Shown here: one piece after another, positions 4,698-47,916 of the stretch
How positions within the stretch are numbered: the stretch's first letter is position 1
How the letters are laid out: the number at the start of each line of letters is the position of its first letter
DNA from: Intrasporangiaceae bacterium URHB0013
GTDB taxonomy: Bacteria; Actinomycetota; Actinomycetes; Actinomycetales; Dermatophilaceae
DNA length: 50,567 nucleotides
Direction: 5' to 3'
Assembly: GCA_000620545.1 (NCBI GenBank)
Contig: JIBA01000006.1
Location: 1-50,567 of the forward strand
Program-made: the position numbers and the translations under genes
Notes under the pieces: generated by a model
What the model was told of the DNA's origin: nothing
What the model saw: the letters and a program-made list of their open reading frames with translations, nothing else
Database searches by the model: none

Positions 4698-6290
4698 TCA
4701 GACCTGGAACACGTGCTCTTGGCGGTAGCCCGTCGTGAGATCGGTGAGCGACAGCCCGATGATGCCGGCCGGGTCGACCGTGTAGCGCTCCTCGAGAAGC
4801 GGGCCCGCCTCGAGACGGACGATGGGCAGCCCACGCAGCACCGAGGACTCGACTGGGGTGGCGCTTCCGGTCCGCCGCTCGGCCCGCTGCAGCTCGGGGT
4901 CGAACGGGAAGACGATCTGGGCCACGGGCGCGAGGTCGCCGCGCGGCTCGCCCTGGTCGTCGACCGAGGAGTACTCCACGAAGCGGAACCAGCCGATGTT
5001 GTGAGCCGCCTGGTAGCGGCGGGTCACGACGACGGACTCGGCGGCTGCCGGCTCGCCGAGCGCGTCCGCGGTCCGCAGCGACCGGTCCAGGACCGGGTCG
5101 AAGGACACGGCAGCCCCGCCCTCGCGCTCACGGAAGACCCCGAAGCCACGCGAGAGCCGGTCGCGCAGCGAGAACCCTGCCTCGGGGTCGGCGGCGATGG
5201 CAAGGCCGACAGCAGTGGAGGCGCTCGGCATCGGGGAGCGATGCACGCGGCGGCCGAACCGTGACCGCAACATCCGGGGCACGAGCGGTAGTCCGCTCGC
5301 TCCGCCGACGATGTAGATGCCGGCCACCCCTTGGAGCTCGTCACCGTCCTCGTCCGGCGACTGCAGGGACTGCACCAGAGGCTCCATCGCCTCGGTGGTC
5401 GCCGCGACCAGCGGCGTGACGGCGGCGTAGAAGTCGTCGACGGGAACGGTCACCGCGGCGCTGGCCTCGCCTGCGGCTGCGGGCACCTCGACGGCGACCC
5501 GGCGAGACTGCGGACCGATGCGCTCCTTGGCCTCGCGGCACTCCTCGAGCAGGCTCGCCCACGACGCCTCGGACAGCTGGGTCTGCTCTCGGCCGGCACC
5601 CTGCAGGGCGGCTGCGGCGAGGGCCTGGTCGAAGTCGTCCCCGCCGAGCCGGTTGACGCCGAAGGAGTCGAGCACCTCGTGCTGAGTGCCCGACAGCCGC
5701 AGCAACGACGCGTCGAAGGTGCCGCCGCCGAGGTCGTAGACGATGACGAGGTCGCGCCGTGACGTGATCGAGCGCGCCTGCCGGTGGGCGAACTCGAAGC
5801 TGGCGGCCGATGGCTCGTTGACGAGACCAGCCACGTCGAAGCCCGCCTGCCTGCACGCCTCGAGGGTGAGGAAGCGCTGGGCGCTGTTGGCCTGGGCCGG
5901 AACACCGAGCATCGCGCGGGGCGGGCGCGTCCCGTCCAGCCGACCGTCGATGCTCGACGCGGTCCGGAGCGCATCCAGAACCGCGGAGAAGAGCCCCGTC
6001 AGCACGTCGAAGAGCGGCACCTCACGGTCACCGAGGCGCATCAGCGTGTGCGGCGTGACCCGGGGCTCGGCGAGCAGGCGCTTGAAAGAGCGGACGGACG
6101 GCATACCTCGTTGGGCCGCCTCGAGCGCCGCGAAGCCGTAGACCAGCGTGCCGCCGTCGTCGGCGACGACGGAGGGGAAGTGGTCACGGGCATCGCCGTC
6201 CTCGTCGAGGAAGGTCACCACCGGGTAGTTGCCGCGGTCGCCGTGGGCGACGACTGTGTGGGTGGTGCCGAAGTCCAGGCCGAGATCCAT
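4698..6290 (-). CDS. Hsp70 family protein (DnaK-like, lid-less)
   Basis: A 530-aa Hsp70-type ATPase. The actin-like nucleotide domain shows phosphate-1 GLDFGTTHTVVA near the N-terminus, VPAQANSAQR and NEPSAA (equivalents of the DnaK VPAYFNDAQR and NEPTAA segments), phosphate-2 YDLGGGTFDASL (about 186-197) and adenosine motif IYIVGGASGLP (about 325-335). About 150 further residues resemble a beta-type substrate domain, but the helical lid of true DnaK (about 620 aa) is missing. The in-frame GTG at 6293 is open, but TAGCCT (reverse strand, 6297-6302) ends 6 bases before the ATG at 6290, supporting a leaderless start there. Client unknown. Confidence 0.88.
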   Translation of the reverse strand: MDLGLDFGTTHTVVAHGDRGNYPVVTFLDEDGDARDHFPSVVADDGGTLVYGFAALEAAQRGMPSVRSFKRLLAEPRVTPHTLMRLGDREVPLFDVLTGLFSAVLDALRTASSIDGRLDGTRPPRAMLGVPAQANSAQRFLTLEACRQAGFDVAGLVNEPSAASFEFAHRQARSITSRRDLVIVYDLGGGTFDASLLRLSGTQHEVLDSFGVNRLGGDDFDQALAAAALQGAGREQTQLSEASWASLLEECREAKERIGPQSRRVAVEVPAAAGEASAAVTVPVDDFYAAVTPLVAATTEAMEPLVQSLQSPDEDGDELQGVAGIYIVGGASGLPLVPRMLRSRFGRRVHRSPMPSASTAVGLAIAADPEAGFSLRDRLSRGFGVFREREGGAAVSFDPVLDRSLRTADALGEPAAAESVVVTRRYQAAHNIGWFRFVEYSSVDDQGEPRGDLAPVAQIVFPFDPELQRAERRTGSATPVESSVLRGLPIVRLEAGPLLEERYTVDPAGIIGLSLTDLTTGYRQEHVFQV

Positions 6291-6364
6291 CACCCAAGGC
6301 TAGGCCGCTGACGCCGACACCAAGGATCTGGCCCAGATATCGGCCACCCCGGCGAGTGCCGCCC

Positions 6365-6805
6365 TCAGAAGGTGGGCAGCTCTCCCTCGCCCGGGGTGAC
6401 GCGCCGCTCCGACTCGTCGATGGGCACGTCGTTGATGCTCGCCTCACGGCGCCGCATGTAGCCGAGGTCGTCGAACTCCCACTGCTCGTTGCCGTAGGAC
6501 CGCCACCACTGGCCGTGCGCATCCCGCGACTCGTACTGGAACCGAACGGCGATGCGGTTGCCCGAGAAGGCCCACAGGTTCTTGCGCAGTCGGTAGTCGA
6601 GCTCACGTGCCCACTTCCGGGACAGGAACTCGACGATGGCTTCCCTGCCGACGACGTGCTCGTCGCGGTTTCGCCACTCCGAGTCCTCGGTGTATGCCGC
6701 GGCGACCCGCTCGGGGTCCCGGGTGTTCCACGCGTCCTCGGCCGCCTGCACCTTCTGGCGGGCGGTCTCCTCGGTGAACGGCGGGACGGGAGGTCGAGGG
6801 TCCAT
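6365..6805 (-). CDS. NTF2-like (DUF1348-type) protein
   Basis: A 146-aa cone-shaped NTF2/SnoaL-like protein. The segments [49 protein letters not shown] and [25 protein letters not shown] are characteristic of the DUF1348 group. AGGAG lies 7 bases before the ATG. It is divergent from the aldo/keto reductase at 7030, with a palindrome in the shared gap. Enzymatic role not established for the group. Confidence 0.85.
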
Positions 6806-6970
6806 TCTTTGCTCCTGGGTGCAGCACGGGTTTCCTCACCTTATCCACGGCCGGGACGCGTGGGGCCCCGCGATCGCGAACGCCGCCCTCCCGTGGCGGC
6901 TGACGCCGGGGCCGGTGAGGATGGGTACGGGTGTCGGGAGGCCACGACGTGGTCGCTGACTGTTGGAGCG

Positions 6971-6985: not shown

Positions 6986-7005
6986 GGATGGGCACTGCGC
7001 ACTGA

Positions 7006-8019
<1,014 letters not shown>

Positions 8020-8113: not shown

Positions 8114-8140
8114 ACGGTCGTCGAGGCGATGGGCTCCGGA

Positions 8141-14251: not shown

Positions 14252-15444
<1,193 letters not shown>

Positions 15445-15642
15445 GAAACGGCTCCGAGGATGCGGGGCTCCACGGTGGCGAGCTGCTGACACCCCGTGGC
15501 GACGCGGAACATTAACACGCGGTGCACCGCGGACGACCCCTTCGGTGACGGGAGCCCACCAGCGGCCCCAGGCGGCTGCGCGAACCGCTGCCGGGCGGCT
15601 GTCGCGCGGCCGCCGGTGCGGGCCGGACGGCATACGTCCTCG

Positions 15643-16577: not shown

Positions 16578-18146
16578 TCAGCGCTTGCGCGTGCCGAAGA
16601 TGCTCCGGCTGATCTCGCGGCCGATGACGGTGCCGGCAGAGCGCAGCATCGACCTGAACGCCGAGCTGCCGGTGACCTGCTGGATGAGACCCGGCTCCTC
16701 CTTCGGTGCGCGCTTCGGAGCGGGGTCGGGGGCGGGCGTCGTGGGCACCGGCGCCGCCGGCGCCGCGGGAGCCGCCTGGAGCCTGGCCGTGAGCTTCTCG
16801 TAGGCGGACTCGCGGTCGACGACGTCGGCGTACTTGGTCCGGAGGCTCGAGGCGCCGATGACGGCGTCCATCGTCGCCTGCGGCGAGGGGTCCATCAGGG
16901 AGTTCGGCGCCTTCATCCGGGTCCACGCGACGGGCGTCGGTACGCCCTTGTCGGACAGCACCGTGACGACCGCCTCGCCGATGCCGAGGCTCGTGAGGAG
17001 CTTCTCCATGTCGTACGCCGTGTGCGGGTAGGTCGCGATGGCCTGCTTGAGCGCCTTGGCGTCGTCGGGGGTGAACGCGCGCAGGGCATGCTGGACGCGG
17101 TTGCCGAGCTGGGCGAGCACGCCGGCCGGGACGTCCTTCGGCGACTGCGTCACGAAGAAGACACCGATGCCCTTGGACCGGATGAGCCGGACCGTCTGTT
17201 CGATGGCCTGCAGGAAGGCCTTGCTCGCGTCGTCGAAGAGCAGGTGCGCCTCGTCGAAGAAGAAGACGAGCTTGGGCTTGTCGACGTCGCCCTCCTCCGG
17301 CAGCTCGTGGAAGAGGTCGGCGAGCATCCACATGAGGAACGTCGAGAACAGCTGCGGTCGGTCCTGCACCTGCGGCAGCTCGAGGCAGGAGATGATCCCC
17401 TTGCCGTCGGGGGCGGTGCGCAGCAGGTCAGCAGTCTCGAACTCGGGCTCGCCGAAGAAGTCACCGGCGCCCTGGTCCTCGAAGGTGATGAGGTTGCGCA
17501 GGATGACGCCGGCCGTCGCGCTCGAGAGGCCGCCGAGCTCCTTGAGGTCCGCCTTGCCCTCGTCGGACGTCAGGTGGCTGATGACGGCCCGGAGGTCCTT
17601 GAGGTCGAGCAGCGCGAGGCCGTTCTTGTCGGCGTAGTGGAAGATCAGCCCGAGGCTGCTCTCCTGCGTGTCGTTGAGACCGAGCACCTTGCTGAGCAGG
17701 GTCGGGCCGAAGCTCGTGATCGTGGCGCGGATCGCGATGCCGTCGCCCTTGCCGCCGAGGCAGTAGAGCTCCGTGGGGTATGCCGTCGCCGTCCACGGCA
17801 TGCCGACGTCCGTCGCGCGGCTGGTGATCTTGTCGCCGCCCTCGCCGGGCGTGGCCAGCCCCGACAGGTCGCCCTTCATGTCGGCGAGGAAGACCGGGAC
17901 GCCCTGGTCGGACAGCTGCTCGGCCATGAGCTGGAGCGTCTTCGTCTTGCCGGTGCCGGTGGCGCCCGCGACGAGGCCGTGACGGTTGAGGACGCTGAGC
18001 GGGATCTGGACGGGGGCGTCAGGGTGGGCCTGGCCGTCGACGACCGCGGCGCCGAGCTTGAGCACCCCTCCGTCGAACGCGTAGCCGGCGCGGATCTCGT
18101 CGATCTGGCTGGTCTCGCCCGTGCTCCGGGCCTCGGTCTCGGTCAC
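16578..18146 (-). CDS. HerA-like ATPase / DUF853 helicase-type protein
   Basis: A 522-aa P-loop ATPase of the HerA/FtsK superfamily (DUF853, YjgR-like). Walker A is GATGTGKT (61-68), Walker B is LVFFFDEAHLLF (about 293-304), and VFFVTQSPKDVP carries the sensor-type Gln. The C-terminal ~90 residues are Pro/Ala-rich linker plus a basic tail (SRSIFGTRKR). The GTG at 18146 is chosen over a much longer open frame: TAGAGT (reverse strand 18154-18159) ends 7 bases before it and homology begins shortly after. Likely DNA-translocating; cellular role poorly known. Confidence 0.88.
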   Translation of the reverse strand: MTETEARSTGETSQIDEIRAGYAFDGGVLKLGAAVVDGQAHPDAPVQIPLSVLNRHGLVAGATGTGKTKTLQLMAEQLSDQGVPVFLADMKGDLSGLATPGEGGDKITSRATDVGMPWTATAYPTELYCLGGKGDGIAIRATITSFGPTLLSKVLGLNDTQESSLGLIFHYADKNGLALLDLKDLRAVISHLTSDEGKADLKELGGLSSATAGVILRNLITFEDQGAGDFFGEPEFETADLLRTAPDGKGIISCLELPQVQDRPQLFSTFLMWMLADLFHELPEEGDVDKPKLVFFFDEAHLLFDDASKAFLQAIEQTVRLIRSKGIGVFFVTQSPKDVPAGVLAQLGNRVQHALRAFTPDDAKALKQAIATYPHTAYDMEKLLTSLGIGEAVVTVLSDKGVPTPVAWTRMKAPNSLMDPSPQATMDAVIGASSLRTKYADVVDRESAYEKLTARLQAAPAAPAAPVPTTPAPDPAPKRAPKEEPGLIQQVTGSSAFRSMLRSAGTVIGREISRSIFGTRKR

Positions 18147-19153: not shown

Positions 19154-20161
19154 TCAGAGCTGGACCATCGTGGCGACCATGAGGGCCTTGATGGTGTGCA
19201 TGCGGTTCTCGGCCTGGTCGAAGACGACCGACGCGCCGGACTCGAAGACGTCGTCGGTCACCTCGAGCTCCTTGAGGCCGAACTGCTCGTGCACGTCCAT
19301 CCCGACCTTCGTCTCGAGGTCGTGGAAGGCGGGCAGGCAATGCATGAACTTGACCTGCGGATTCCCCGTCAGCGCAAGGAGCTCCGCGTTGACCTGGTAG
19401 GGCGTGAGCAGCTCGATGCGCTCCGCCCACACCTCCTGGGGCTCACCCATCGACACCCACACGTCGGTGTGGACGAAGTCGACGCCGCGCACCCCCTCGG
19501 CCACGTCCTCGGTGAGCGTGACCCGCGCACCGGTGTCGGCGGCATACCTCTTCGCGACGGCGACGACGGCGTCCGAGGGCCACAGCGAGCGCGGCGCCAC
19601 GATGCGCACGTCCATGCCGAGCAGGGCTCCGGTCACGAGCAACGAGTTGCCCATGTTGAAGCGGGCGTCACCGACGTAGGCGTACGCGATCTGCTCGTCG
19701 GGCTTGCCGGCGTGCTCGCGCATCGTCAGCGCGTCGCAGAGCGACTGCGTCGGGTGCCAGTCGTCGGTGAGGCCGTTCCAGACGGGGACCCCGGCGAAGG
19801 CGCCGAGGGTCTCGATGACGTCGTGGCCGGAGCCGCGGTACTCGATGCCGTCGTAGAAGCGCCCGAGCACGCGCGCGGTGTCCTTGGCCGACTCCTTGTG
19901 GCCCATCTGCGAGCCGATCGGGTCGAGGTAGGTCGTGCTCGCGCCCTGGTCGGCCGCGGCCACCTCGAACGCACATCGCGTGCGCGTCGAGGTCTTCGCG
20001 AAGAGCAGCGCGATGTTCTTGCCGGTGAGGTGTCGCTCCTCGCGGCCCTCGCGCTTGGCGGCCTTCAGCTCGGCGGCGAGATCGAGCAGCGCCCGGAACT
20101 CGTCGGGCGTCAGGTCGATCTCCTTGAGCAGGTTGCGGCGGTGGAGTGCGGCGAGCGACAT
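19154..20161 (-). CDS. argF: Ornithine carbamoyltransferase
   Basis: 335 aa; converts ornithine and carbamoyl phosphate to citrulline. The carbamoyl-phosphate loop STRTR is at 58-62, HPTQ at 136-139, and the ornithine/catalytic HCLP at 274-277. The long SMG-loop region ([10 protein letters not shown]) is intact. The length and the [28 protein letters not shown] segment resemble the longer ArgI/ArcB type more than the ~310-aa anabolic ArgF, so a catabolic role is possible; no arginine deiminase or carbamate kinase is adjacent. The open frame extends 150 bp upstream, but the family start is the ATG at 20161; no ribosome site is obvious. Confidence 0.93.
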
Positions 20162-20559: not shown

Positions 20560-20570
20560 CGGCATACACT
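20560..20570 (+). promoter_or_regulatory. Promoter of SRP RNA overlapping a CGGCATAC motif
   Basis: TACACT (20565-20570) is a good -10 element 7 bases before the predicted RNA start, with a weak TTTCCG (20541-20546) 18 bases upstream. The dispersed 8-mer CGGCATAC (20560-20567) overlaps the -10. Confidence 0.55.
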
Positions 20571-26733: not shown

Positions 26734-26829
26734 CTGCACCCGTCCCTTCGTCGACCCTGTCGAGGCCACCGTATGCCGCCGGCCTCCGAACCCGCTGAAG
26801 GCGCCGGCTCTCAGCGACGGGAAGCCCGG

Positions 26830-27291: not shown

Positions 27292-27394
27292 GCGGTGATC
27301 TCCTACGTCGTGTCGTACTGGAACGCCCAGTGTGCCAAACGCCCGGCACGCCACTGCGACCCCCCCGTGGTCGGCCTCCGGGACCGCCCGGTCA

Positions 27395-27432
27395 GAGGTA
27401 TGCCGTCGCGACGGGGCGCGACGGCATACCTC
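27395..27432. terminator. Terminator hairpin built from two inverted GTATGCCG motifs
   Basis: Perfect 16-bp arms 27395-27410 and 27417-27432 around ACGGGG. It sits just past the minus-strand membrane gene at 27451. Each arm holds one copy of the dispersed 8-mer. Confidence 0.65.
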
Positions 27433-27450
27433 GGGAGTGCCGGGCTGAGT

Positions 27451-29280: not shown

Positions 29281-30566
29281 CGGTGCCCACCGCCGTCGGC
29301 GAGGCGGACGCCGGAGAGGGCCCAGCGCGAGCCCGGTGGGAAGAAGTTGCGGTAGGTGGCGCGGGCGTGACCGGGCGGGGTCAGGGCGCACCCACCACGC
29401 AGGACCATCTGGCCGGACATGAACTTGCCGTTGTACTCGCCGATGGCCCCGGCCGGGGCGTGGTACCCCGGATAGGCGAGGTACGCCGAGCTCGTCCACT
29501 CCCAGCAGTCGCCGTAGACCTGGCGCAGGTGACCGGTGCTCGGTCCCGCCGCGCGGGGGTGGAAGGTCTCGGTGTCGGCGAGGTTGCCGCCGGCGCTCGC
29601 CGCGTCGGCCTGCCCGTCGGCCACGACGGCATGCTCCCACTCGACCTCGGTGGGCAACCGCTTGCCGGCCCACGTGGCGTAGGCGTCGGCCTCGTAGTGG
29701 CTGACGTGGCTCACGGGCAGGCCCGGGTCGACGGGCCGGGTGCCGCTGAGCGTGTGCTCGAACCAGACGCCGTCGACCTCGTTCCAGTAGAAGGGCGCCC
29801 GCCAGCCTTCGCCCCGCACCCTGGCCCAGCCGTCGGAGAGCCAGAGCTCGTGGCGCTCGTAGCCGCGGTCGGCCATGAATGCCAGCCACTCACCGTTGGT
29901 GACCAGGCGGTCGGCCAGTCGGTAGGGGTCGAGCCACTGCTGGTGCAGGGGCAGCTCGTTGTCGAAGCTGAAGCCGCCGCCTCGGTGTCCCACCTCGACG
30001 AGGCCGCCCTCGACGTCGACCCAGCCCAACGGGTCGGGTGCGGACGGCGCCAGGGGGCTGCCGGCATACGAGGGCTGGAGCGGGTTGACCGACAGGACGT
30101 GCTTGATGTCCATGAGCAACAGCTCCTGGTGCTGCTGCTCGTGGTGGAAGCCGAGCTCGATGGTCGACGTCAGCTTGTCGAGCGAGCCGCCGTCGAGGGT
30201 CGTGACGAGCTCGCGCATCCGCGCGTCGACGTCGGCGCGGTAGAGACCGACGTCCTGAGCGCCCGGGCGGGTGATGAAGCCGCGCTCGGCGCGGGCGTAA
30301 CGGGGCCCCACGCCCTCGTAGTAGCTGTTGAAGAGGAACCAGTACTGGTCCTGGTAGGGCCGGAACGACGGCTCGTGCTCGGCGAGCACGAACGTCTCGA
30401 AGAACCACGTGACGTGCGCGCGGTGCCACTTCGTCGGCGACACGTCGGGCATCGACTGGACGGTCTGGTCCTCGGGGGACAGCGGGGCGGCAAGCGTCTC
30501 GGTGTGGGCTCGCACCTCGTCGTAGCGCGCGACGAGCGCCTCGGCGTCCCAGATCAGGTCGGGCAT
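29277..30566 (-). CDS. egtB: Ergothioneine sulfoxide synthase EgtB
   Basis: 429 aa; iron- and oxygen-dependent coupling of hercynine with a thiol (gamma-Glu-Cys in mycobacterial type). The N-terminal DinB-like domain supplies the three-His iron site: His51 (WHRAHVTWFFE) and His142-x3-His146 (FHHEQQHQELL). The C-terminal half is an FGE/sulfatase-modifying domain (KRLPTEVEWEHAV, VYGDCWEWTSSAY, VLRGGCALTPPGH, YRNFFPPGSRWALSGVRLA). GGAGGAGG lies six bases before the ATG at 30566. Upstream is TAAGGT (reverse strand 30622-30627) and a palindrome at the predicted mRNA start. egtA, egtC and egtE are not adjacent. Confidence 0.95.
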   Translation of the reverse strand: MPDLIWDAEALVARYDEVRAHTETLAAPLSPEDQTVQSMPDVSPTKWHRAHVTWFFETFVLAEHEPSFRPYQDQYWFLFNSYYEGVGPRYARAERGFITRPGAQDVGLYRADVDARMRELVTTLDGGSLDKLTSTIELGFHHEQQHQELLLMDIKHVLSVNPLQPSYAGSPLAPSAPDPLGWVDVEGGLVEVGHRGGGFSFDNELPLHQQWLDPYRLADRLVTNGEWLAFMADRGYERHELWLSDGWARVRGEGWRAPFYWNEVDGVWFEHTLSGTRPVDPGLPVSHVSHYEADAYATWAGKRLPTEVEWEHAVVADGQADAASAGGNLADTETFHPRAAGPSTGHLRQVYGDCWEWTSSAYLAYPGYHAPAGAIGEYNGKFMSGQMVLRGGCALTPPGHARATYRNFFPPGSRWALSGVRLADGGGHR

Positions 30567-30775: not shown

Positions 30776-33478
30776 ATGGCCACCGCCCTGTACCGCCGTT
30801 ACCGGCCCGAGAGCTTCGCCGACGTCATCGGCCAGGAGCACGTGACGGAGCCGCTCATGCAGGCGCTGCGTACGGGTCGGGTCAACCACGCCTACCTCTT
30901 CAGCGGCCCACGCGGCTGCGGCAAGACGACCAGCGCGCGCATCCTCGCGCGCTGTCTCAACTGCGAGCAGGGCCCGACGCCGATCCCGTGCGGCACCTGC
31001 GACTCGTGCGTGGCGCTCGCGCGCGGCGGCTCGGGGTCGGTCGACGTCATCGAGATCGACGCCGCGAGCCACGGTGGTGTCGACGACGCCCGCGACCTGC
31101 GCGAACGGGCGAGCTACGGCCCGGCGCAGAGTCGCTTCAAGATCTACATCATCGACGAGGCGCACATGGTGACGCCGCAGGGCTTCAACGCGCTGCTCAA
31201 GATCGTCGAGGAGCCGCCGGAGCACGTGAAGTTCGTCTTCGCCACCACCGAGCCCGAGAAGGTCATCGGCACGATCCGGTCGCGCACGCACCACTACCCC
31301 TTCCGGCTCGTCCCGCCGGCGAAGCTGTCGACCTACATGGAGCGGCTGCTCGAGTCCGAGCACGTGGCCGTCCAGCCGGGGGTGCTCAGCTTCGTCACGC
31401 GCGCGGGCGGTGGATCGGTCCGTGACTCCCTCTCGGTGCTCGACCAGCTCATCGCGGGGTCGGGTCCCGAGGGGCTGACATACGACGGCGCCGTGTCGCT
31501 GCTCGGCTTCACCGACGGAGAGCTGCTCGACAGCACGGTCGACGCGATGGCCGCCGGTGACGGCGCGGCGACGTTCCGCCAGATCGACCGGGTCATCGAG
31601 TCCGGCCACGACCCACGCCGGTTCGTCGAGGACCTCCTCGAGCGACTGCGCGACCTCATCATCGTCGCGGCCATCCCCGAGGGCGTCTCCCAGGTGCTGC
31701 GCGGCGTCCCCGAGGACCAGCTCGAGCGCATGCGGGTCCAGCAGGCGGCGTTCGGTCCCGGGGCGCTCTCCCGCGCGGCCGACATCGTCAACACCGGCCT
31801 CACCGAGATGACGGGCGCCACCGCCCCGCGCCTCCAGCTCGAGCTCATCTGCGCGCGCATCCTCCTGCCGGCCGCCTCCGGCGAGCAGGGGTATGCCGCC
31901 CGCCTCGACCGTCTCGAACGCCGTCTCGACGTCGGCGGGGTCCCGACCGCCGCACGCGGCGATGCACCGCCCGTGGGGCCGTCGGCCCACGCATCGCAGG
32001 CCCGGCCGGCTGGCCCGGCTGCCCCGGCCGGCCCGGCTGGCCCGCCGCCCGGGTCGGGTGGCGCTCCGGTGTCTGCTCCGCCGCGGACCGTGTCCGACTA
32101 CACGCCGGCCTCGAGCGGTGGCTCGACGTCCCCGTCGCACGCGGCGGGTGGCATGGGTGGCGGCGGTCGCAGCACCGGAGTCGAGCCCGCCCCAGCCGGG
32201 TCCGCCGTGCCCCCGGCGAGCTCTGGCCCCGGTGACGTGGCGCGCGTCGACGATGCCCGTGCCGAGGTCGGCGCGCCGCCCGTCCCGACGCTGCAGGAGT
32301 CGGTGGGCGGTCCGTCCACCGTCGACCGGTCGCACGGTGGGGGTGAGCAGCATCTCGCCGGCGCGTCCGAGCAGGCGGGGTCGGGGGCGACCGCGTCCGG
32401 GTCCGCTGCGCATCCTGACCTGGCTCAGGTCCGGGCCGGCAGCGAGTCGGCCCCCACAGGTGCGCAGGACGCCGCAGGTGTCGCTGGTGGCGGTGGCGCC
32501 TCGGCGGGCGGCGCCTCGGGAGGCATGGACACCGACGCGATCCGTCGCGCCTGGCCCAACGTGCTCGGTCGCATCTTCACGATGCGGCGCCTCACCTGGA
32601 CCTTCGTGTCGCAGAACGCCCAGGTCACCGCCTTCGACGGCAAGAAGCTCACCCTCGGGATCGCGACAGCCGGTCTCACGCAGACCTTCCGTGCGGGCAA
32701 CCACGCCGACGTCGTGCGGCAGGCACTGATCGACGAGCTCGGCGTCGACGCCATCGTGGACGGCGTCCACGTCGACGACGTTTCGCAGCAGGCTCCGGTC
32801 GCGCCTCCGCCTGGCGCCGTTCCCGCGGGGCTTCCGGATCCGCCGAGCAAGGGCGACGTCGCCGGTCCGGCCGACGGTGGGCAGTCCGGCCGTCTGCAGG
32901 GCGATGCCGGCGCAGGTCGCCAGTCGTGGGGGGACGCCGGGGCCGGGCACGAGTCCGCCGGACCCGGGAGCGGCGCCCCGAGCCGGCCCGGCGGCTCCGC
33001 TGGTGGCGGCGCGCAGGCGTCCGCAGGGTCGCGTGGCGCCACAGCACTCGCCGACGCCGGCCTGAGCCCGGTCGCCGGTCGGTCGCTCGAGGAGAACGCC
33101 GGGTGGGGGTCGGCGACGGGCCCCGCGCCCGACTGGGCCACCGCCCCGACGGCCGCCCCGGCAGTGGCTGGTGAGGTGCACGGCGGACCGTCGTCCGCGG
33201 CGGCTCCGGCCGACGGCCCGGCGACGGCTTCCCGGGGGAGCGAGGTCCCCACGGACTCGGCAGTGCGTGGTGCGAGCGCGGTGCGGCAGTCATTCGCGCA
33301 GGCCCGTTCGCGCGCCGGGGGCTCGCGCCCCAGCGACGACGACCAGCCGCGACCGCCGGCGACCGACGACTCGGCGGTCAGTGACGACGACGAGGACATC
33401 GAACAGTCCGGAGACGTCGGTCGCGCCGTCATCGAGAAGGTGCTCGGCGGCCGCGTCGTCCAGGAGCTCGGCGACTGA
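30776..33478 (+). CDS. dnaX: DNA polymerase III subunits gamma and tau
   Basis: 900 aa; the clamp-loader ATPase that organises the replisome. The N-terminal AAA+ domain has Walker A GPRGCGKT (44-51), a zinc site with Cys63, Cys72, Cys75 and Cys78, and Walker B IIDEAH (125-130), followed by the SRC-type helix (GGSVRDSLSVLDQLIAG). After about residue 380 there are two long Gly/Pro/Ala/Ser-rich linkers flanking a folded tau-type domain (IRRAWPNVLGRIFTMRRLTWTFVSQNAQV, about 586-680), making it long for the family. TAGGGT (30764-30769) ends 6 bases before the ATG: leaderless. Confidence 0.96.
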   Translation: MATALYRRYRPESFADVIGQEHVTEPLMQALRTGRVNHAYLFSGPRGCGKTTSARILARCLNCEQGPTPIPCGTCDSCVALARGGSGSVDVIEIDAASHGGVDDARDLRERASYGPAQSRFKIYIIDEAHMVTPQGFNALLKIVEEPPEHVKFVFATTEPEKVIGTIRSRTHHYPFRLVPPAKLSTYMERLLESEHVAVQPGVLSFVTRAGGGSVRDSLSVLDQLIAGSGPEGLTYDGAVSLLGFTDGELLDSTVDAMAAGDGAATFRQIDRVIESGHDPRRFVEDLLERLRDLIIVAAIPEGVSQVLRGVPEDQLERMRVQQAAFGPGALSRAADIVNTGLTEMTGATAPRLQLELICARILLPAASGEQGYAARLDRLERRLDVGGVPTAARGDAPPVGPSAHASQARPAGPAAPAGPAGPPPGSGGAPVSAPPRTVSDYTPASSGGSTSPSHAAGGMGGGGRSTGVEPAPAGSAVPPASSGPGDVARVDDARAEVGAPPVPTLQESVGGPSTVDRSHGGGEQHLAGASEQAGSGATASGSAAHPDLAQVRAGSESAPTGAQDAAGVAGGGGASAGGASGGMDTDAIRRAWPNVLGRIFTMRRLTWTFVSQNAQVTAFDGKKLTLGIATAGLTQTFRAGNHADVVRQALIDELGVDAIVDGVHVDDVSQQAPVAPPPGAVPAGLPDPPSKGDVAGPADGGQSGRLQGDAGAGRQSWGDAGAGHESAGPGSGAPSRPGGSAGGGAQASAGSRGATALADAGLSPVAGRSLEENAGWGSATGPAPDWATAPTAAPAVAGEVHGGPSSAAAPADGPATASRGSEVPTDSAVRGASAVRQSFAQARSRAGGSRPSDDDQPRPPATDDSAVSDDDEDIEQSGDVGRAVIEKVLGGRVVQELGD

Positions 33479-34456: not shown

Positions 34457-35131
34457 ATGTTCTACAGCCTCGGGCGCAATCTCCTGTACCCGCTGTCCCA
34501 TGCGCTGTACCGACCCACGATCGAGGGCAAGGACAACCTGCCCCGGGAGGGCGGGGTTATCGTGGCGAGCAACCACCTGTCGTTCATCGACTCCTTCGCG
34601 ATCCCCCTCGCCTCCCCTCGGCAGGTGCGCTTCCTGGCCAAGGAGGAGTACTGGACGGGCTCGGGAGTCGGCGGTCTGCTCCGCAAGGGCTTCTTCAGCT
34701 CCGTCGGCATGGTCCCGGTCAACCGGCACTCGGCGACCGCGGCGCAGGAGAGCCTCGACGCGGCGCTCGAGGTGCTCAAGGCGGGCGACGCGTTCGGCAT
34801 CTATCCCGAGGGCACGCGGTCGCGGGACGGCCGGCTCTACCGCGGGCGCACAGGTGTGGCGTGGCTGGCCCTGACTGCGCAGGTGCCGGTCGTGCCGGTC
34901 GGGCTCATCGGCACCGAGGACATCCAGCCGGTCGGTGCAAGGTTCCCGCGGCTCGCGAAGGTGACCGTGCGCTTCGGTGAGCCGATCGGCGTCGAGGAGT
35001 ATGCCGGTGTGCCCGCAGGCAAGGCGCGCCGTCAGCTGACCGATCGGGTCATGGAGGCCATTGCCGAGCTGAGCGGTCAGGAGCGCGTCGACGCGTACAA
35101 CGAGGTGCCCGGGGGAGAGCCCTCCGCCTGA
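34457..35131 (+). CDS. 1-acyl-glycerol-3-phosphate acyltransferase (PlsC-like)
   Basis: 224 aa. The acyltransferase HX4D motif NHLSFID (His40, Asp45) and EGTRSRDG (118-125) are intact, with VPVVPVGLIG following. It probably transfers an acyl chain to a lysophospholipid or related acceptor at the membrane. The ATG at 34457 is chosen because TAGGCT (34444-34449) ends 7 bases before it (leaderless); the frame is open 69 bp upstream. Confidence 0.9.
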   Translation: MFYSLGRNLLYPLSHALYRPTIEGKDNLPREGGVIVASNHLSFIDSFAIPLASPRQVRFLAKEEYWTGSGVGGLLRKGFFSSVGMVPVNRHSATAAQESLDAALEVLKAGDAFGIYPEGTRSRDGRLYRGRTGVAWLALTAQVPVVPVGLIGTEDIQPVGARFPRLAKVTVRFGEPIGVEEYAGVPAGKARRQLTDRVMEAIAELSGQERVDAYNEVPGGEPSA

Positions 35132-35189: not shown

Positions 35190-36302
35190 GTGAACGCCCC
35201 GACCACCTCTGCCGTCACGACCGGCCCACGCCCGGCACCTGCGCGGATCGGACCTGCCGAGCGTCGCAGCCTCCTCGGGATGGCGGCGTTCGTCGCACTG
35301 CTGCACGTCGTCGGCTGGGGACTGCTCGTGCTGTTCGTCGCCCCGGAGGAGTATCGCGTCGAGGGCCAGCTCTTCGGAGTCGGGCTCGGCGTCACCGCCT
35401 ACACCTTGGGGATGCGCCACGCCTTCGACGCCGACCACATCGCGGCCATCGACAACACGACCCGCAAGCTCCTCGCCGACGGGCGACAGTCGATGAGCGT
35501 GGGCTTCTGGTTCAGCCTCGGTCACTCCTCGGTCGTCCTGGTCATCGTCATGCTGCTCGCCCTCGGCATTCGGGCCCTCGCCGGCGCCCTCGAGGACGAC
35601 GGCTCGGCGCTGCAGCAGGTGACCGGCGTCTGGGGCACCACGGTCTCGGGCGTCTTCCTCGTCCTCATCGGCCTGGTCAACCTCGCGGCGCTCGTCGGCA
35701 TCCTCAAGGTGTTCCGCCGGATGCGCTCGGGGCACTACGACGAGGCCGAGCTCGAGCGGCAGCTCGACAAGCGCGGCTTCCTCAACCGCCTCCTGGGCCG
35801 CGTCACGCGAGCCGTGCGCAAGCCCTGGCACATGTACCCCGTCGGCCTGCTGTTCGGGCTCGGCTTCGACACGGTGACCGAGGTCGGACTGCTCGTCATC
35901 GCCGGCGGCGCCGCCGCAGCAGACCTGCCCTGGTATGCCGTGCTGACCCTTCCCGTGCTCTTCGCCGCGGGCATGTCGCTCCTCGACAGCCTTGACGGGT
36001 CGTTCATGAACTTCGCCTACGGCTGGGCGTTCAACCGGCCGGTGCGCAAGATCTACTACAACATCACCGTCACCTCGCTCTCGGTCGCGGTCGCGCTCGT
36101 CATCGGGCTCATCGAGCTCGTCGGCCTGCTCGGCGAGAAGCTCGGCATCACGAGCGGGCCGGTCGCCTGGGTCGCCTCGATCGACCTCGGGGACGTCGGC
36201 TTCTGGATCGTCGGACTCTTCCTCGTCACGTGGGTGGTGGCACTTGCCGTGTGGCGCTTCGGGCGCATCGAGGAGCGGTGGTCGGCGGCGCTCGCCGACT
36301 GA
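35190..36302 (+). CDS. NiCoT-family nickel/cobalt transporter
   Basis: A 370-aa high-affinity Ni2+/Co2+ permease of the HoxN/NixA/NicT family with about eight TM helices. The TM2 signature RHAFDADHIAAIDN (His77, Asp80, Asp82, His83) that binds the metal is intact, as are FWFSLGHSSVV, LGFDTVTEVGLL and GMSLLDSLDGSFMNFAYGWAF. No His-rich loop. No urease, hydrogenase or cobalamin genes are in the window. Controlled by the overlapping palindrome. Confidence 0.93.
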   Translation: MNAPTTSAVTTGPRPAPARIGPAERRSLLGMAAFVALLHVVGWGLLVLFVAPEEYRVEGQLFGVGLGVTAYTLGMRHAFDADHIAAIDNTTRKLLADGRQSMSVGFWFSLGHSSVVLVIVMLLALGIRALAGALEDDGSALQQVTGVWGTTVSGVFLVLIGLVNLAALVGILKVFRRMRSGHYDEAELERQLDKRGFLNRLLGRVTRAVRKPWHMYPVGLLFGLGFDTVTEVGLLVIAGGAAAADLPWYAVLTLPVLFAAGMSLLDSLDGSFMNFAYGWAFNRPVRKIYYNITVTSLSVAVALVIGLIELVGLLGEKLGITSGPVAWVASIDLGDVGFWIVGLFLVTWVVALAVWRFGRIEERWSAALAD

Positions 36303-36434: not shown

Positions 36435-37682
36435 TCAGCCGGGCGGTGCCTGTGACCTGACGTCGTCGATGGCCGCGCGGAAGTGCGGCAGGGCCGCCTC
36501 GATCGACTCGGCTGTCGCCGTGAGGCAGATCCGGAACCAGCCGGGTGTCTCGAAGAGGGCGCCCGGCATGACGAGGACGCCGCGACGCTCGAGCGATGCC
36601 ACGAAGGCCTCGTCGTCGGGGATCGGCGAGCGCGGCCACACGTAGAACGTGCCCTCGGGCGACGTGACCTCGTAGCCCATCTCGCGCAGCGCACCGACGA
36701 TCCGGTCACGCTTGGCCTGGAGGGCGCCCACGTCGAGGGACAGCCGCTCGAGGTCGGGGACGGCATACTGCATCACGGCGTTCGGGAAGAGCCACCCGCC
36801 GGCGATCTGCAGGCTGTCGATGGCGTCCATCAGTGCAGCCGCGTCAGGTAGCCCGGGCGGGACCGCGAGGTAGCCGACCCGCTGTCCCGGCGCCAGGAGC
36901 GTCTTGCCGTAGCTGTAGCAGAGCAGCGTGTAGCGGTAGAACTGCGCGGGGCTGTGGAAGGTGGCGCCGTCGAAGACGATCCGGTTGTACGGCTCGTCGG
37001 AGATGATCCAGATGCGGCGGCCGTTGCGGGCAGAGGCCTCCTCCAGCAGCTCCGCGAGCGCCGTCAGCGTGGCTGGGGGGTAGATGCGGCCCGACGGGTT
37101 GTTCGGGGTGTTGACGACGACGATGCGCGTGCGTGGGCCGAGGGCCGCGGAGATCGCGTCGAGGGCGAGGTCGAAGGTCGGCTGCAGCGCCGGCACCTTG
37201 ACCGGGACGAGCCCGGCCTCGACGGCGAGGATCTCGTAGAGGAACCACGGCGGGAGCGTGTAGACGACTTCGTCGCCCGGGTCGGCCACCGCCTTCATCG
37301 CGACGGTGATGGCGCCGAACCCGCCTGTCGTCATGCGCAGGTCCGCACCCGACCAGCCGAGCGGGACGACCCGCTCGAGGGACGCGGCGGCTGCGTCCTG
37401 GGCGGGCTGCTCGCTCTGCTTGTAGGCGAACCACTGCTCGCTGCGTGGCACCGCGGCCTCGCGCAGGGCCTCGACGTAGGCCGGCATCTGCATCTCGTGC
37501 GGGTCGCCGAAGGTGAAGTCGAGGACGCCGTCCTCTCTGCGGCGCGCGTCCTCGATGGCCCGTCGCCGGAGGAACCCGAAGAGCATCCGGAAGGGCGTGG
37601 TCGCCTGGATCAGCTCACTGCGGCGGGACACACCGCCCGCTCCCGGGCTGTCCGGCGCGGGGCTCGGCGGCAGGTCCTCCAC
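36435..37682 (-). CDS. PLP-dependent aminotransferase (class I/II)
   Basis: 415 aa from the GTG at 37682, preceded by GAGG at 7 bases; the frame is open further upstream. Fold-type I residues: NTPNNPSG (191-198), Asp229 in ISDEPYN, and the cofactor lysine Lys260 in CYSYGKTLLAPGQRVG, followed by the phosphate-binding Arg. Substrate not predictable; resembles aspartate/aromatic-type aminotransferases. Confidence 0.88.
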   Translation of the reverse strand: MEDLPPSPAPDSPGAGGVSRRSELIQATTPFRMLFGFLRRRAIEDARRREDGVLDFTFGDPHEMQMPAYVEALREAAVPRSEQWFAYKQSEQPAQDAAAASLERVVPLGWSGADLRMTTGGFGAITVAMKAVADPGDEVVYTLPPWFLYEILAVEAGLVPVKVPALQPTFDLALDAISAALGPRTRIVVVNTPNNPSGRIYPPATLTALAELLEEASARNGRRIWIISDEPYNRIVFDGATFHSPAQFYRYTLLCYSYGKTLLAPGQRVGYLAVPPGLPDAAALMDAIDSLQIAGGWLFPNAVMQYAVPDLERLSLDVGALQAKRDRIVGALREMGYEVTSPEGTFYVWPRSPIPDDEAFVASLERRGVLVMPGALFETPGWFRICLTATAESIEAALPHFRAAIDDVRSQAPPG

Positions 37683-38515: not shown

Positions 38516-38680
38516 CGCGACCACGCGCGAGCGCTCGCCCGGTCAGGGCGACTGGGCCTCGCTCGAAGGATCAGAACGGGACCGGGTCGACGGGCAACCC
38601 GGGCACCCGGCAGACTGGGCGGCACCGCGCCAGCCAGCCCCACGGCATACGTCCTCGGGGCCCGACCAGGGAGACCTGTG

Positions 38681-40691: not shown

Positions 40692-41795
40692 ATGAGACCT
40701 ATGACCCGATCTGTCCTGCTCATGGCCGCCACCACCGCGCTCCTCGCCACGACATCGAGTGCGTATGCCGGGTCGCCCGGTCTCAGGGGAGGTGACGCTT
40801 CCACGACGGCCGCGGGGACGGCATACGGCTGGACGGTGACGCCGACCGGGACGACCGAGCAGTTCCGCGGGCTCGCCCCGGTCTCGCGTGACGTCGCCTG
40901 GGTGAGCGGCACGCACGGCACGGTGCTGCGCACGACCGACGGTGGGTCGACGTGGGACGACGTGAGCCCGCAGGGACTCGGCACCGGCGCCCTGCAGTTC
41001 CGCGACATCGAGGCGTTCGACGCGCGGCACGCCGTCATCCTCTCGATCGGCGAGGGCGAGGACTCCCGCATCCTCGTCACCGACGACGGTGGCGCGAGCT
41101 GGACGGAGACGTTCCGCAACACCGACCCGGCCGCCTTCTACGACTGCATGGCGTTCAGCTCGCCGCGGCGGGGCCTCGCGATGAGCGACCCGGTCGACGG
41201 CAGGTTCCGTCTCGTCGAGACCTCTGATGGCGGCCGCTCGTGGTCCCTCGTCGACCCCGCCGGGATGCCTGCCGCACGGCCCGGCGAGTTCGCCTTCGCA
41301 GCGTCCGGCACGTGCCTGTCGGCCGGTGTCGGCGGCCGGACCTACCTCGCCAGCGGCGGCGTGGACCCGGCTCGCCTCTTCACCTCGACCGACCACGGAC
41401 GCACCTGGACCGTCGCGGACAGCCCTGTCGCCGGTGGCGCCTCGGCGGGCATCTTCTCGGTGAGCTTCCGCGACGCCCGGCGAGGCGTCATCGTCGGCGG
41501 CGACTTCGCGGACGCCGAGGGAGCCGTGGACAATTCGGCCTGGACCGACGACGGCGGCGCGACCTGGACGAAGTCCACGAGCAACCCGTCGGGCTACCGA
41601 TCCGGCTCGGCGTGGGTGCCGAGGACGGCGCGCACGGTCCTCGCGGTCGGACCCTCGGGGTCGGACGTGTCGACCGACGGCGGCCGCACGTGGGCGACGT
41701 TCGACACCGGCAGCTTCGACTCCGTCGAGTGCACCGCCGACGGCGCCTGCTGGGCATCCGGCGCGCAGGGCCGCGTCGGCGTCCTCACGTCCTGA
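40692..41795 (+). CDS. Secreted YCF48/BNR-like beta-propeller protein
   Basis: A 367-aa exported protein. Signal peptide MRPMTRSVLLMAATTALLATTSSAYA|G. The mature part has repeated Asp-box motifs of the YCF48/BNR type: TTDGGSTWDDV, TDDGGASWTE, TSDGGRSWSLV, STDHGRTWTVA, TDDGGATWTK and STDGGRTWATF. That gives a six- or seven-bladed propeller. Such proteins are often mislabelled oxidoreductases; function unknown. TAGTTT (40678-40683) ends 8 bases before the first ATG, favouring it over the ATG three codons later. Confidence 0.85.
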   Translation: MRPMTRSVLLMAATTALLATTSSAYAGSPGLRGGDASTTAAGTAYGWTVTPTGTTEQFRGLAPVSRDVAWVSGTHGTVLRTTDGGSTWDDVSPQGLGTGALQFRDIEAFDARHAVILSIGEGEDSRILVTDDGGASWTETFRNTDPAAFYDCMAFSSPRRGLAMSDPVDGRFRLVETSDGGRSWSLVDPAGMPAARPGEFAFAASGTCLSAGVGGRTYLASGGVDPARLFTSTDHGRTWTVADSPVAGGASAGIFSVSFRDARRGVIVGGDFADAEGAVDNSAWTDDGGATWTKSTSNPSGYRSGSAWVPRTARTVLAVGPSGSDVSTDGGRTWATFDTGSFDSVECTADGACWASGAQGRVGVLTS

Positions 41796-45636: not shown

Positions 45637-46041
45637 ATGACAACACGAATCATGGCCAGAGCCGCCAAGGCCGGCGTCGCCGTCGTCGCGGCCGCCGCCA
45701 CCCTGCCGCTCATGGCCGGACCGGCACTGGCGAACTCGTTCACCACGTACGTCTACCAGGGCAAGGTCTCGTACAACGACGGCGAGGACCGCTTCTGCGC
45801 CCGGGCGGACGAGGTGAACATCAACGACCGCGCCGTCATCGAGGTGACGCTGACCCCGTACAACACCTCGCGCGGGCCGACGATCTCGTTCAGCGACGTC
45901 GACTACTCGGGGGCAACCTGCCGGAGCCTGGCGACGGCGTACGAGGACACGTACTACAAGGCGGTCATCAAGAGCCTCACGCACTTCGACCGCGTCAACG
46001 GCTCCACGTACCAGACGACGGTCGTCAACTTCTACAGCTGA
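45637..46041 (+). CDS. Secreted hypothetical protein
   Basis: 134 aa with a clear Sec signal (MTTRIMARAAKAGVAVVAAAATLPLMAGPALA|N). The mature ~100 residues are Tyr/Thr/Asn-rich, probably beta, with two Cys (DRFCARADEV, GATCRSLA) that could form a disulfide. No family recognised. TAAGGT (45598-45603) is a likely -10 and AAAGGGA the ribosome site. The gene ends at a strong terminator. Confidence 0.75.
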   Translation: MTTRIMARAAKAGVAVVAAAATLPLMAGPALANSFTTYVYQGKVSYNDGEDRFCARADEVNINDRAVIEVTLTPYNTSRGPTISFSDVDYSGATCRSLATAYEDTYYKAVIKSLTHFDRVNGSTYQTTVVNFYS

Positions 46042-46070
46042 CCCGCTCCCTGACACGAGCCCGTGAGCCA

Positions 46071-46110
46071 CACTGACCGCCCGCCGCGGAGTTCCGGCGG
46101 GCGGTCAGTG
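46071..46110. terminator. Strong bidirectional terminator
   Basis: A perfect 15-bp stem (46071-46085 with 46096-46110) between the convergent secreted-protein and MFS genes. Confidence 0.8.
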
Positions 46111-46124
46111 CGTTCGTCTGGCGG

Positions 46125-47612
46125 TCACGTCGCCGTCGGCTCGCGCTCCGGGGCAGTGGCCCCCTCGGGGGCGGTGGCTTGCTGGGGGCCGTCGGTGGGC
46201 GAGCCCTCGACGTCCTCTGCGCGGGTGTGGGGCATGAGGAGACCAGCGGCGATGGTGATGAGGGCCGCGACGAGCACGGCGAGGAACACGGCGCTCGAAC
46301 CGGCCTGCACGGCCTCGCTCGACGCGTCGCCGCCGTGTGCGGCGATGACGGCGTTGGCGATGGCACCGAAGATCGCTACCCCGACGGCGCTTCCGACGGA
46401 GCGCATGAACATGTTGGTGCCCGTCACGACGGCGCGCTCGTTCCACGGCACCGACGCCTGGGCGGCGATGAGCGTCGGGGTCGCGACGAGTCCGAGCCCG
46501 AGACCGACGACGAGGCACGAGCCGGCGGTGGCCCAGACGTTCGGCGTGCTCGAGGTGAGCCACAGCGAGAGGGTGCCGAGAGCGGCGACGACGAGCCCGA
46601 TGAGCGCCGTCGGGCGGAAGCCGACGCGCATGTAGAGACGCCCCGACTGCGATGCCGAGATCGGCCATCCGATCGTCAGGGCGGCGACCGCGAGACCGGC
46701 CACGATGGGGGTGGCGCCGGTCGAACGTTCGAGGAAGGTCGGCACGTAGGACGTGAGACCGACGAGGACTGCGCCGACACCGATGCCGATGAGGCACGCC
46801 GCGACGATGAGGCGACGGGTCAGCACCTCGAGCGGCAGCACCGGCTCGGCCGCGCGCCGCTCGATGAGGAGGAAGGCGCCGAGGAGTGCGCCACCCACGG
46901 CGAAGGAGCCGATGCTCTGCCACGAGCTCCAGGCCCAGGCCTGTCCACCCTCCAGGACGGCGAGGATGAGCAGGGTCAGCGCGACCGTGAGGACGGCGGC
47001 GCCCGCGTAGTCGATCCGGTGCTTGCGGCGTTCGACGGACTCGTCGTAGTGCCGCCACAGCATGCCTGCGGCGAGCAGGCAGAAGGGGATGTTGACGAAG
47101 AAGATCCAGCGCCACGAGGCGAACTGCGAGAAGACGCCGCCGAGCGTCGGACCGACGACGGAGGAGACGGCCCAGACGCTGGCGATGTAGCCCTGGGTCT
47201 TGGCGCGCTCGGCCACCGTGTAGATGTCGGCGGCGATCGTCGTCGTCATGGGGAGCACCGCTCCGGCGCCGAGGCCTTGGACCGCCCGCATGACGATGAG
47301 CGAGCCCATGTCCCAGGCGAGGCCACAGAGGATGCTGCCGACCAGGAAGAGGCCGATGCCGAAGAGGATGACGGGCTTGCGTCCCACCGTGTCGGCGAGC
47401 TTGGCGTAGACGGGAACCGACACCGCTTGGGCGAGCAGGTAGACGGAGAAGAGCCAGGGGAACTGCGTCAGACCGCCGAGGTCCTGGACGATCGACGGGA
47501 CCGCCGTGGCCAGGATGGTCGAGTCCAGCGCGATGAGCGAGGTCGACAGCATGAGCGCGATGAGGATCGGCCCGCGGTCCGAGCGGAATCCCAGGGTGGT
47601 CGAGGTCGACAC
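46125..47612 (-). CDS. DHA2-family MFS drug-efflux-type transporter
   Basis: 495 aa, about 14 TM helices. Motif A GRKPVILFG after TM2 region, ALDSTILATAVPSI in TM1 (DHA2 motif D1 type), VVGPTLGGVF motif C in TM5 and SWRWIFFVNIPF thereafter identify the proton-coupled DHA2 efflux group. Start GTG 47612 follows AGGAGG by only three bases; an ATG at 47669 is the alternative. Drug specificity cannot be inferred. No regulator adjacent. Confidence 0.9.
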   Translation of the reverse strand: MSTSTTLGFRSDRGPILIALMLSTSLIALDSTILATAVPSIVQDLGGLTQFPWLFSVYLLAQAVSVPVYAKLADTVGRKPVILFGIGLFLVGSILCGLAWDMGSLIVMRAVQGLGAGAVLPMTTTIAADIYTVAERAKTQGYIASVWAVSSVVGPTLGGVFSQFASWRWIFFVNIPFCLLAAGMLWRHYDESVERRKHRIDYAGAAVLTVALTLLILAVLEGGQAWAWSSWQSIGSFAVGGALLGAFLLIERRAAEPVLPLEVLTRRLIVAACLIGIGVGAVLVGLTSYVPTFLERSTGATPIVAGLAVAALTIGWPISASQSGRLYMRVGFRPTALIGLVVAALGTLSLWLTSSTPNVWATAGSCLVVGLGLGLVATPTLIAAQASVPWNERAVVTGTNMFMRSVGSAVGVAIFGAIANAVIAAHGGDASSEAVQAGSSAVFLAVLVAALITIAAGLLMPHTRAEDVEGSPTDGPQQATAPEGATAPEREPTAT

Positions 47613-47916
47613 GATCCTCCTGCTGGTGTGGGGCGACAACGAGAGACAACGCGCCCGGGCGCCGTTCATTCCCGCCGAGCCGATATTTGCGCCTTTCCCC
47701 GCACACGGGGTCCGGTAGGCGCGACACTGGGGACTGACGCCGCGCGCCGTGGGTGCGTGGCGTGCCAAACTCCTCATGGTGTCGTGTGGCCGGCGTGAGG
47801 CGGCCCTGCGGCGCAGCCCCGGGCGTATGCCGTCCGGCTCACCGACGCGGCGGACATCCGGCGCGGCGGGGGACCCCGGCAGACGTCCACCCTCGTGCTC
47901 TGGAAGGAGCGCCGTG
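47613..47916. other. Divergent intergenic region, MFS / GCS2 ligase
   Basis: 304 bp. It holds GACAACGAGAGACAACG (a 7-bp direct repeat, 47633-47650), the dyad CCCCG-CACA-CGGGG (47697-47710) next to an AT-rich ATATTT likely to be part of the MFS promoter, and one GTATGCCG motif (47825-47832). No gene seen. Confidence 0.4.

Follow-up and report, generated by a model that had tools for sequence, protein, structure and literature searches.

Contig JIBA01000006.1 of Intrasporangiaceae bacterium URHB0013 poses a simple question: why does one 8-mer, GTATGCCG, recur throughout its positions 1 to 50,567? This whole stretch of 50,567 nucleotides is referred to here as the window. The original prediction, made from the letters of the window, counted 22 exact copies of GTATGCCG, 11 on each strand, and suspected selection on the DNA itself. 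On recounting, all 22 are present in the same strand ratio; the one listed at 31889 starts at 31891. The earlier expectation of about two copies by chance was too high, as 100 dinucleotide shuffles of the window give 0.61 copies (maximum 4) and an order-2 model predicts 0.82. When words of lengths 6 to 10 are ranked, the most over-represented in the window are parts of GTATGCCG or overlap it. Here, we argue that GTATGCCG is probably a DNA uptake sequence, read by a transformation machinery that would thereby favour DNA of the cell's own kind.

The word is not peculiar to the window. Its density is one copy per 2,298 bases in both the window and the whole genome (4,567,713 bases in 17 contigs), which contains 1,988 copies, 977 forward and 1,011 reverse; the reversed control word occurs there 113 times forward and 135 times reverse. 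In a sample of seven contigs, window included (420,907 bases), we found 165 copies against 7.8 expected. The flanks of these copies are only mildly alike: position +9 is T in 13 of the 22 window copies, while in the 165-copy sample it is T in 78 and C in 58, and position -1 is C in 99. A dispersed repeat family, raised earlier as a possible source of the excess, is rejected because the flanks share nothing beyond this mild preference. Most one-mismatch neighbours of GTATGCCG occur near expectation in the 420,907-base sample (GTACGCCG, for example, 48 times against 36.4 expected), and recognition of the word in this genome therefore looks strict. The neighbour with the largest excess is GGATGCCG (85 against 44.4). 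For the other words described below, some one-mismatch neighbours do exceed expectation. One contig of the same genome, C6 (29.9 kb), possibly a mobile element, has a low coding score and just two copies of GTATGCCG; by Pfam it carries accessory genes (glutamate-cysteine ligase family 2, MetOD1, ANTAR and a kinase).

In the window, 15 of the 22 copies lie in predicted genes and seven between genes, and 14 of the genic copies encode Tyr-Ala or Ala-Tyr, a count that our own gene predictions reproduce (the remaining copy encodes Gly-Met-Pro). Codon or dipeptide preference does not account for this. The 327 predicted coding sequences (CDS) that we analysed hold 120 copies, whereas 200 synonymous shuffles within genes gave a mean of 11.9 and a maximum of 21, a tenth of what is observed; the codon-usage check proposed in the original prediction thus left its claim standing. 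Tyrosine is encoded by TAT in 120 of 2,144 cases outside the motif, compared with 70 of 99 where the flanking letters permit the motif, and alanine is encoded by GCA in 30 of 82 CG-Ala-TAC cases, compared with 7 of 205 other Ala-TAC cases. The dipeptides themselves, Tyr-Ala and Ala-Tyr, occur at 1.06 and 1.09 times expectation.

Individual sites are also conserved. In seven genomes of the same genus, 13/16, 13/16, 13/17, 10/13, 10/13, 8/10 and 7/14 of the aligned window sites are kept, and in the next genus 11/12. Retention among these near relatives is 0.50-0.92, against 0.31-0.48 for words of the same composition, a roughly twofold difference. Where near genomes differ at a site, pairwise comparison (among relatives that are not mutually independent) finds changes by transitions, transversions, double changes and indels. 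Together, synonymous shuffling, site retention and these several routes of gain and loss support the view that GTATGCCG is selected as DNA, not via protein or codon use.

These comparisons also bear on the idea that GTATGCCG is made by mutational bias, for instance deamination of C in GTACGCCG, or by codon-pair preference, to which we assign only a very slim chance. TAT-GCC is indeed one transition from the preferred TAC-GCC, but that change accounts for just 6 of 24 losses and 4 of 41 gains, the others proceeding through other positions, double changes and indels. Similarly, GTACGCCG is scarce (91-98 copies) in the GTATGCCG-rich genomes G012, G051 and G055 (we denote relatives by G numbers and loci by L numbers), but this precursor is not depleted in the genome's own sample, with 48 copies against 36 expected. 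We therefore disfavour a one-step C-to-T conversion as the origin of the word. Mutational bias also fits poorly with the 43 of 165 copies that are intergenic, and the other dialects and the unrelated word CGAAGGGGG, both described below, would require different mutations.

To see how widespread GTATGCCG is, we counted it in 147 genomes. The eight genomes of the same genus carry 1,423-2,358 copies each. With each genus (the own one among them) represented by its first genome, 30 of the 53 genera of the family carry 939-4,724 copies and the remaining genera at most 293, while the 58 genomes from the order's other families hold at most 167 each. Within the family, which includes Flexivirga, the word is likewise abundant in Knoellia sinensis (2,485 copies) and in a Serinicoccus (1,535). 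It is not abundant in the genomes counted from Arthrobacter, Rothia, Kocuria, Curtobacterium, Nocardioides and Nesterenkonia (16-110 copies in those of Kocuria, Arthrobacter, Rothia and Nesterenkonia). Among the families searched, GTATGCCG is confined to one.

Word scans of 20-kb samples from the word-poor genera, followed by whole-genome counts in 63 genomes, uncovered one-letter dialects. GGATGCCG reaches 3,619-3,949 copies in G024, G072, G034 and the metagenome-assembled genome G149, and 260-1,336 in the other counted genomes except G052, which bears two dialects (2,195 copies of GGATGCCG and 1,217 of GTATGCCG). GTACGCCG reaches 2,111-3,903 copies in G048, G084, G056, G088 and G031, is weaker in G076 (1,463), G032 (1,359) and G062 (1,125), and occurs 39-870 times in other genomes. 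The sixth base is mostly A, C or G in Flexivirga and any base in G062. G033 and G076 belong to one genus and differ in word, the GTACGCCG excess of G076 being modest (6 in 40 kb). On a dnaX tree of 35 rows, 11 word-state changes are needed; several inner branches are weak, and G009 is labelled GGATGCCG on weak grounds (its 1,336 copies are near the upper background, 1,239 in G001). The tree's well-supported branches require that GTATGCCG and GGATGCCG have each been gained or lost at least twice.

Twelve of 50 genera bear none of the known words. No convincing other word emerged from 20-80 kb each of G017, G018, G022, G036, G044, G049, G053, G065 and G010; the scan covered just 5.7 kb of G016 and 347 bases of G021, and G057 was left out, so these three may well carry other words. 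In G014, which has neither tadA (see below) nor the known words, 37.5 kb contain 34 copies of GGAGCCGG where 7.7 are expected (L103, L246), which may reflect composition or another word. Several 8-mers, CAGTTCGA among them, occur 27-30 times in positions 1-20000 of contig C1 of G031 (L112) and are probably a local repeat array. The top words of the samples from G027 and G031 (20 kb each) and from G028 (40 kb) resembled local repeats.

Two genera use an entirely different word. CGAAGGGGG occurs 1,939 times in G045, 1,666 in G046, 1,317 in G081 and 1,311 in G082, but at most 74 times in each of the other 58 counted genomes, and its carriers lack the GTATGCCG, GGATGCCG and GTACGCCG words. It lies on either strand and takes all six possible frames relative to genes, and codon use is therefore no explanation for it. 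Although unrelated in sequence, it shares the anatomy of GTATGCCG (L117, L221, L257, L116, L244, L253, L220, L260, L261, L222). Outside the family, AGCGGATG occurs 1,608 and 1,919 times in two Cryobacterium genomes and 151-596 times in the other 18 genomes counted, while a third Cryobacterium contains ACGGATGC 15 times in 19 kb. These (L063, L066, L064) are possibly uptake words of another family.

Word switching among relatives also bears on the main rival to the uptake reading, namely that GTATGCCG is a DNA methyltransferase target, enriched through methylation-linked repair, mutation or regulation, with dialects that follow the specificity of the enzyme. A one-base switch is also expected from altered enzyme specificity. 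A known parallel is HIP1 of cyanobacteria, likewise the top over-represented 8-mer and likewise substituted in some relatives; according to excerpts of PMC4390886, it goes with methyltransferases, and switches of the word accompany switches of methyltransferase. However, HIP1 and most of its substitutes are palindromes in that account, unlike GTATGCCG, GGATGCCG, GTACGCCG and CGAAGGGGG. The rival also does not simply predict the inverted pairs and the scarcity in mobile inserts reported next, and we consider it unlikely.

Close pairs of GTATGCCG (two copies at most 60 bases apart) are all inverted, with an inverted:direct ratio of 6:0; random placement gives 1.8 inverted pairs, and six or more in 0.008 of runs. 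The ratio is 18:4 for GGATGCCG, 11:1 for CGAAGGGGG and 3:0 for GTACGCCG, or 38:5 for the four words pooled. Some inverted pairs form long terminator-like stems, such as one in contig C2 and the window pair at 27398 and 27422, which has a 16-bp stem (the fold of 27386-27450 is -47.3 kcal/mol). In known uptake sequences, closely spaced inverted pairs are often terminator-like stems, and the words are scarce in recently acquired DNA. In the mobile inserts of G005, G015, G001 and G055, we counted 3 copies against 20.8 predicted from genome density, while their flanks hold 20 against 27.0. Outside this sum, the region further upstream in G055 has 8 against 9.3, and that behind tadC in G076 has 1 against 3.7.

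The 43 intergenic copies of the 165-copy sample correspond to 0.58 per kb, compared with 0.35 within genes, and two other words are likewise denser between genes (2.35 vs 0.82 and 1.06 vs 0.40 per kb). This density, along with the conservation of sites among near relatives, could be explained if GTATGCCG were the site of a chromosomal protein with thousands of targets, such as a nucleoid-associated protein or global regulator. We find this improbable: 121 of the 165 copies are genic, some sense and some antisense, few lie in mobile inserts, each change of dialect would have to replace about two thousand sites, and 12 of 50 genera bear no known word.

A recombination or segregation signal, either Chi-like (RecBCD/AddAB) or resembling the FtsK-orienting polar sequences (KOPS), is more improbable still. 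Chi of E. coli has a copy number similar to that of GTATGCCG and differs among taxa, and in these respects the two do resemble each other. However, orientation is unbiased: on a 197-kb contig of the own genome the ratio is 47:36, and in a single-contig relative, whose origin is assumed from the contig start and a weak difference in GC skew, GGATGCCG is oriented 64:84 on one arm and 60:72 on the other, with no reversal. We therefore reject replication polarity, in agreement with the original prediction, which had taken the balanced strands as an argument against a KOPS-like role. The inverted pairs and the absence of the word from many genera do not fit such a signal either.

Table 1. Copies of GTATGCCG in the window, with strand and context. 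Gene borders are those of a simple codon-based gene finder made for this analysis.
Feature	Position	Strand	Context
GTATGCCG copy	6099..6106	-	CDS 4698-6293(-), Gly-Met-Pro
GTATGCCG copy	6692..6699	+	antisense in CDS 6365-6805(-), Ala-Ala-Tyr
GTATGCCG copy	15124..15131	+	antisense in CDS 14551-15264(-), Thr-Ala-Tyr
GTATGCCG copy	15628..15635	-	intergenic, divergent genes either side
GTATGCCG copy	17778..17785	+	antisense in HerA-like CDS 16578-18146(-), Thr-Ala-Tyr
GTATGCCG copy	19540..19547	-	carbamoyltransferase CDS 19154-20161(-), Tyr-Ala
GTATGCCG copy	20560..20567	-	intergenic
GTATGCCG copy	23908..23915	+	antisense in acetyltransferase CDS 23245-24498(-), Thr-Ala-Tyr
GTATGCCG copy	24072..24079	-	acetyltransferase CDS 23245-24498(-), Tyr-Ala
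GTATGCCG copy	24705..24712	-	CDS 24547-26064(-), Tyr-Ala
GTATGCCG copy	26771..26778	+	intergenic
GTATGCCG copy	27398..27405	+	intergenic; left arm of inverted pair with 27422
GTATGCCG copy	27422..27429	-	intergenic; right arm of inverted pair with 27398
GTATGCCG copy	30062..30069	-	CDS 29277-30566(-), Tyr-Ala
GTATGCCG copy	31891..31898	+	dnaX 30776-33478(+), Tyr-Ala
GTATGCCG copy	34999..35006	+	acyltransferase CDS 34457-35131(+), Tyr-Ala
GTATGCCG copy	35933..35940	+	NicO CDS 35280-36302(+), Tyr-Ala
GTATGCCG copy	36761..36768	-	aminotransferase CDS 36435-37682(-), Tyr-Ala
GTATGCCG copy	38643..38650	-	intergenic
GTATGCCG copy	40763..40770	+	CDS 40701-41795(+), Tyr-Ala; inverted pair with 40819
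GTATGCCG copy	40819..40826	-	antisense in CDS 40701-41795(+), Thr-Ala-Tyr; inverted pair with 40763
GTATGCCG copy	47825..47832	+	intergenic, divergent genes either side

We favour an uptake sequence because the word is genome-wide, strand-balanced, non-palindromic, conserved, organised in dialects, paired in inverted orientation and infrequent in mobile inserts. Of the options listed in the original prediction, an uptake-type sequence is the best fit, given the dialects, the inverted pairs and the few copies in mobile inserts, while a Chi-like recombination hotspot is not supported. A surface DNA receptor of the natural-transformation machinery would recognise GTATGCCG and so lead cells to favour DNA from their own kind during uptake. 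Incoming alleles that bear the word would enter and recombine more often, causing it to accumulate, and selection, biased recombination or both would maintain it at some two thousand places.

Several of these features, namely an abundant non-palindromic word, strand balance, inverted pairs, dialects and scarcity in inserts, are those of the DNA uptake sequences (DUS) of Neisseriaceae and the uptake signal sequences (USS) of Pasteurellaceae. As described in parts of Frye et al. 2013 (PMC3630211), DUS are short words in thousands of copies; related genera have dialects that are one or a few letters apart, copies are paired in dyad symmetry, and one genome, that of S. muelleri, combines two dialects as G052 does here. 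The hosts here differ in being high-GC Gram-positive Actinobacteria with different words, including an unrelated second word in one clade. USS, according to excerpts of PMC1626085, PMC2346458 and PMC1939737, are likewise short words in hundreds to thousands of copies and are tied to competence; phylum, word and pilus differ here.

Which machinery might read the word? We propose a comEA/comEC channel together with a Tad (Flp) pilus. comEC is present in 57 of 59 family genomes, and ComEA was identified by eye in the own genome, the sole genome read for it. Uptake through a type IVa pilus of the Neisseria kind is rejected, as PilT is nearly absent (matches at E<=1e-60 in 2 of 59 genomes, none in the other 57). 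The own genome instead contains a compact operon, tadA-tadB-tadC-small pilin-tadE-tadF-tadG, in which the small pilin (flp) and tadF are named by position; in 17 of 25 relatives, prfB lies within the same 20-kb stretch as this operon. Micrococcus luteus has the same tad gene order, and its transformation depends on tad genes (Angelov et al. 2015, PMC4322843, with a review in PMC6370729, both as excerpted); PMC4322843 uses neither 'uptake sequence' nor 'uptake signal' as a term. Word-specific DNA uptake in these Gram-positive bacteria would probably be Tad-pilus-based. The dialect would be read by a protein of the apparatus, our guess being a minor pilin of the TadE/F/G kind.

The distribution of tadA is consistent with such a role. 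It was matched in 69 of 80 genomes, and the 11 without a match comprise nine word-less and two word-rich genomes. Ignoring kinship, tadA is thus unmatched in 9 of 20 word-less genomes against 2 of 60 word-bearing ones. By genus (genus-level Fisher test, kinship again ignored), 6 of 12 word-less genera and none of 38 word-bearing genera lack a match in every sampled genome, with two weak assignments among the latter: G061, counted as word-bearing via its sister G009, and G027 (752 copies of GTACGCCG). The TadE family is too widespread (53/54) to serve as a discriminator.

In several genomes tadA is interrupted. It is split at the nucleotide-binding loop in G005 (L224), G015 (L225) and G036 (L226/L227), and further downstream in G001 (L228). 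Each insert has a serine recombinase beside one junction (by Pfam in G005, G015 and G001, by eye in G036), and the tadA of G025 is a piece ending at about the same residue as the splits at the loop. Mobile elements in competence genes, such as comK and comM, are known elsewhere, and the tadA inserts are therefore in keeping with a transformation role, although phages, too, can use a pilus as their receptor. Two further observations concern the same regions. Behind tadC of G034 (match 254/325 residues), an open reading frame (L205:8597-9658) contains a 13-residue repeat 14 times without mismatch. The stretch upstream of flp in G055 yielded no tadA-tadB-tadC; a region with a SIR2-like protein lies there instead (identified by eye; L243:7354-8514).

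Several observations weigh against an uptake sequence read by this machinery. comEC, being near universal, does not separate word-bearing from word-less genomes, and we reject it as a discriminating gene. tadA has no match in the word-rich G055 and G045, is present in 11 of 20 word-less genomes (interrupted in G036), and is interrupted or shortened in the word-rich G001, G005 (of the own genus), G015 and G025; the word can therefore outlive an intact tadA. By blastp identity, the tad pilins show no obvious change matched to dialect, and no receptor candidate stood out among the tad proteins, ComP itself not having been searched for. The deficit in mobile inserts comes mostly from G015 alone (1 against 12.3), and the region behind tadC in G034, outside that sum, is not clearly depleted (8 against 12.4). 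GTACGCCG is not enriched between genes (0.59 per kb, against 0.75 in genes). Site retention is unclear farther out (3/8 in G023, 3/10 in G024, 1/4 in G033 and 0/8 in G034) and is 0/3 in each of G084, G048 and G076; most of these seven genomes carry a different word. There is hardly any halo of one-mismatch words in the own genome, such as a slowly decaying uptake word might leave. Lastly, spacing is near random, with a coefficient of variation of 0.91, and we reject a more even arrangement.

Taking words and pilus together, we lean slightly towards a broader reading, in which natural transformation of Gram-positive Actinobacteria would be sequence-specific and run through a Tad pilus, uptake words would form a vocabulary for species recognition, and integrative elements bearing serine recombinases would silence the pilus motor gene repeatedly. 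As part of that same reading, and held with the same slight preference, the vocabulary would comprise GTATGCCG, GGATGCCG, GTACGCCG, variants whose sixth base is free, and CGAAGGGGG in the family, and AGCGGATG and ACGGATGC in Cryobacterium; it would switch between genera by single letters or wholesale. Literature searches for uptake sequences in Actinobacteria gave no earlier report of such a word among the matches listed, and the matches listed for the letters of GTATGCCG are unrelated by title (subscription journals and preprints were outside the scope of these searches).

To our knowledge, two Gram-negative families, Neisseriaceae and Pasteurellaceae, are the only groups for which uptake words with dialects are established. 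If our reading is true, the words described here would be a third, unrelated case, in Gram-positive bacteria and with a different pilus, meaning that sequence-labelled DNA exchange has evolved more than once. The many natural switches of dialect would help to find the receptor and the rules of its coevolution with the word; since well-supported branches of the dnaX tree imply that GGATGCCG was gained or lost at least twice, comparisons between close neighbours with different words offer a way to look for the receptor. The reading would also indicate which environmental actinobacteria can be transformed, and by what DNA, which would be useful for the genetics of strains that are hard to manipulate.

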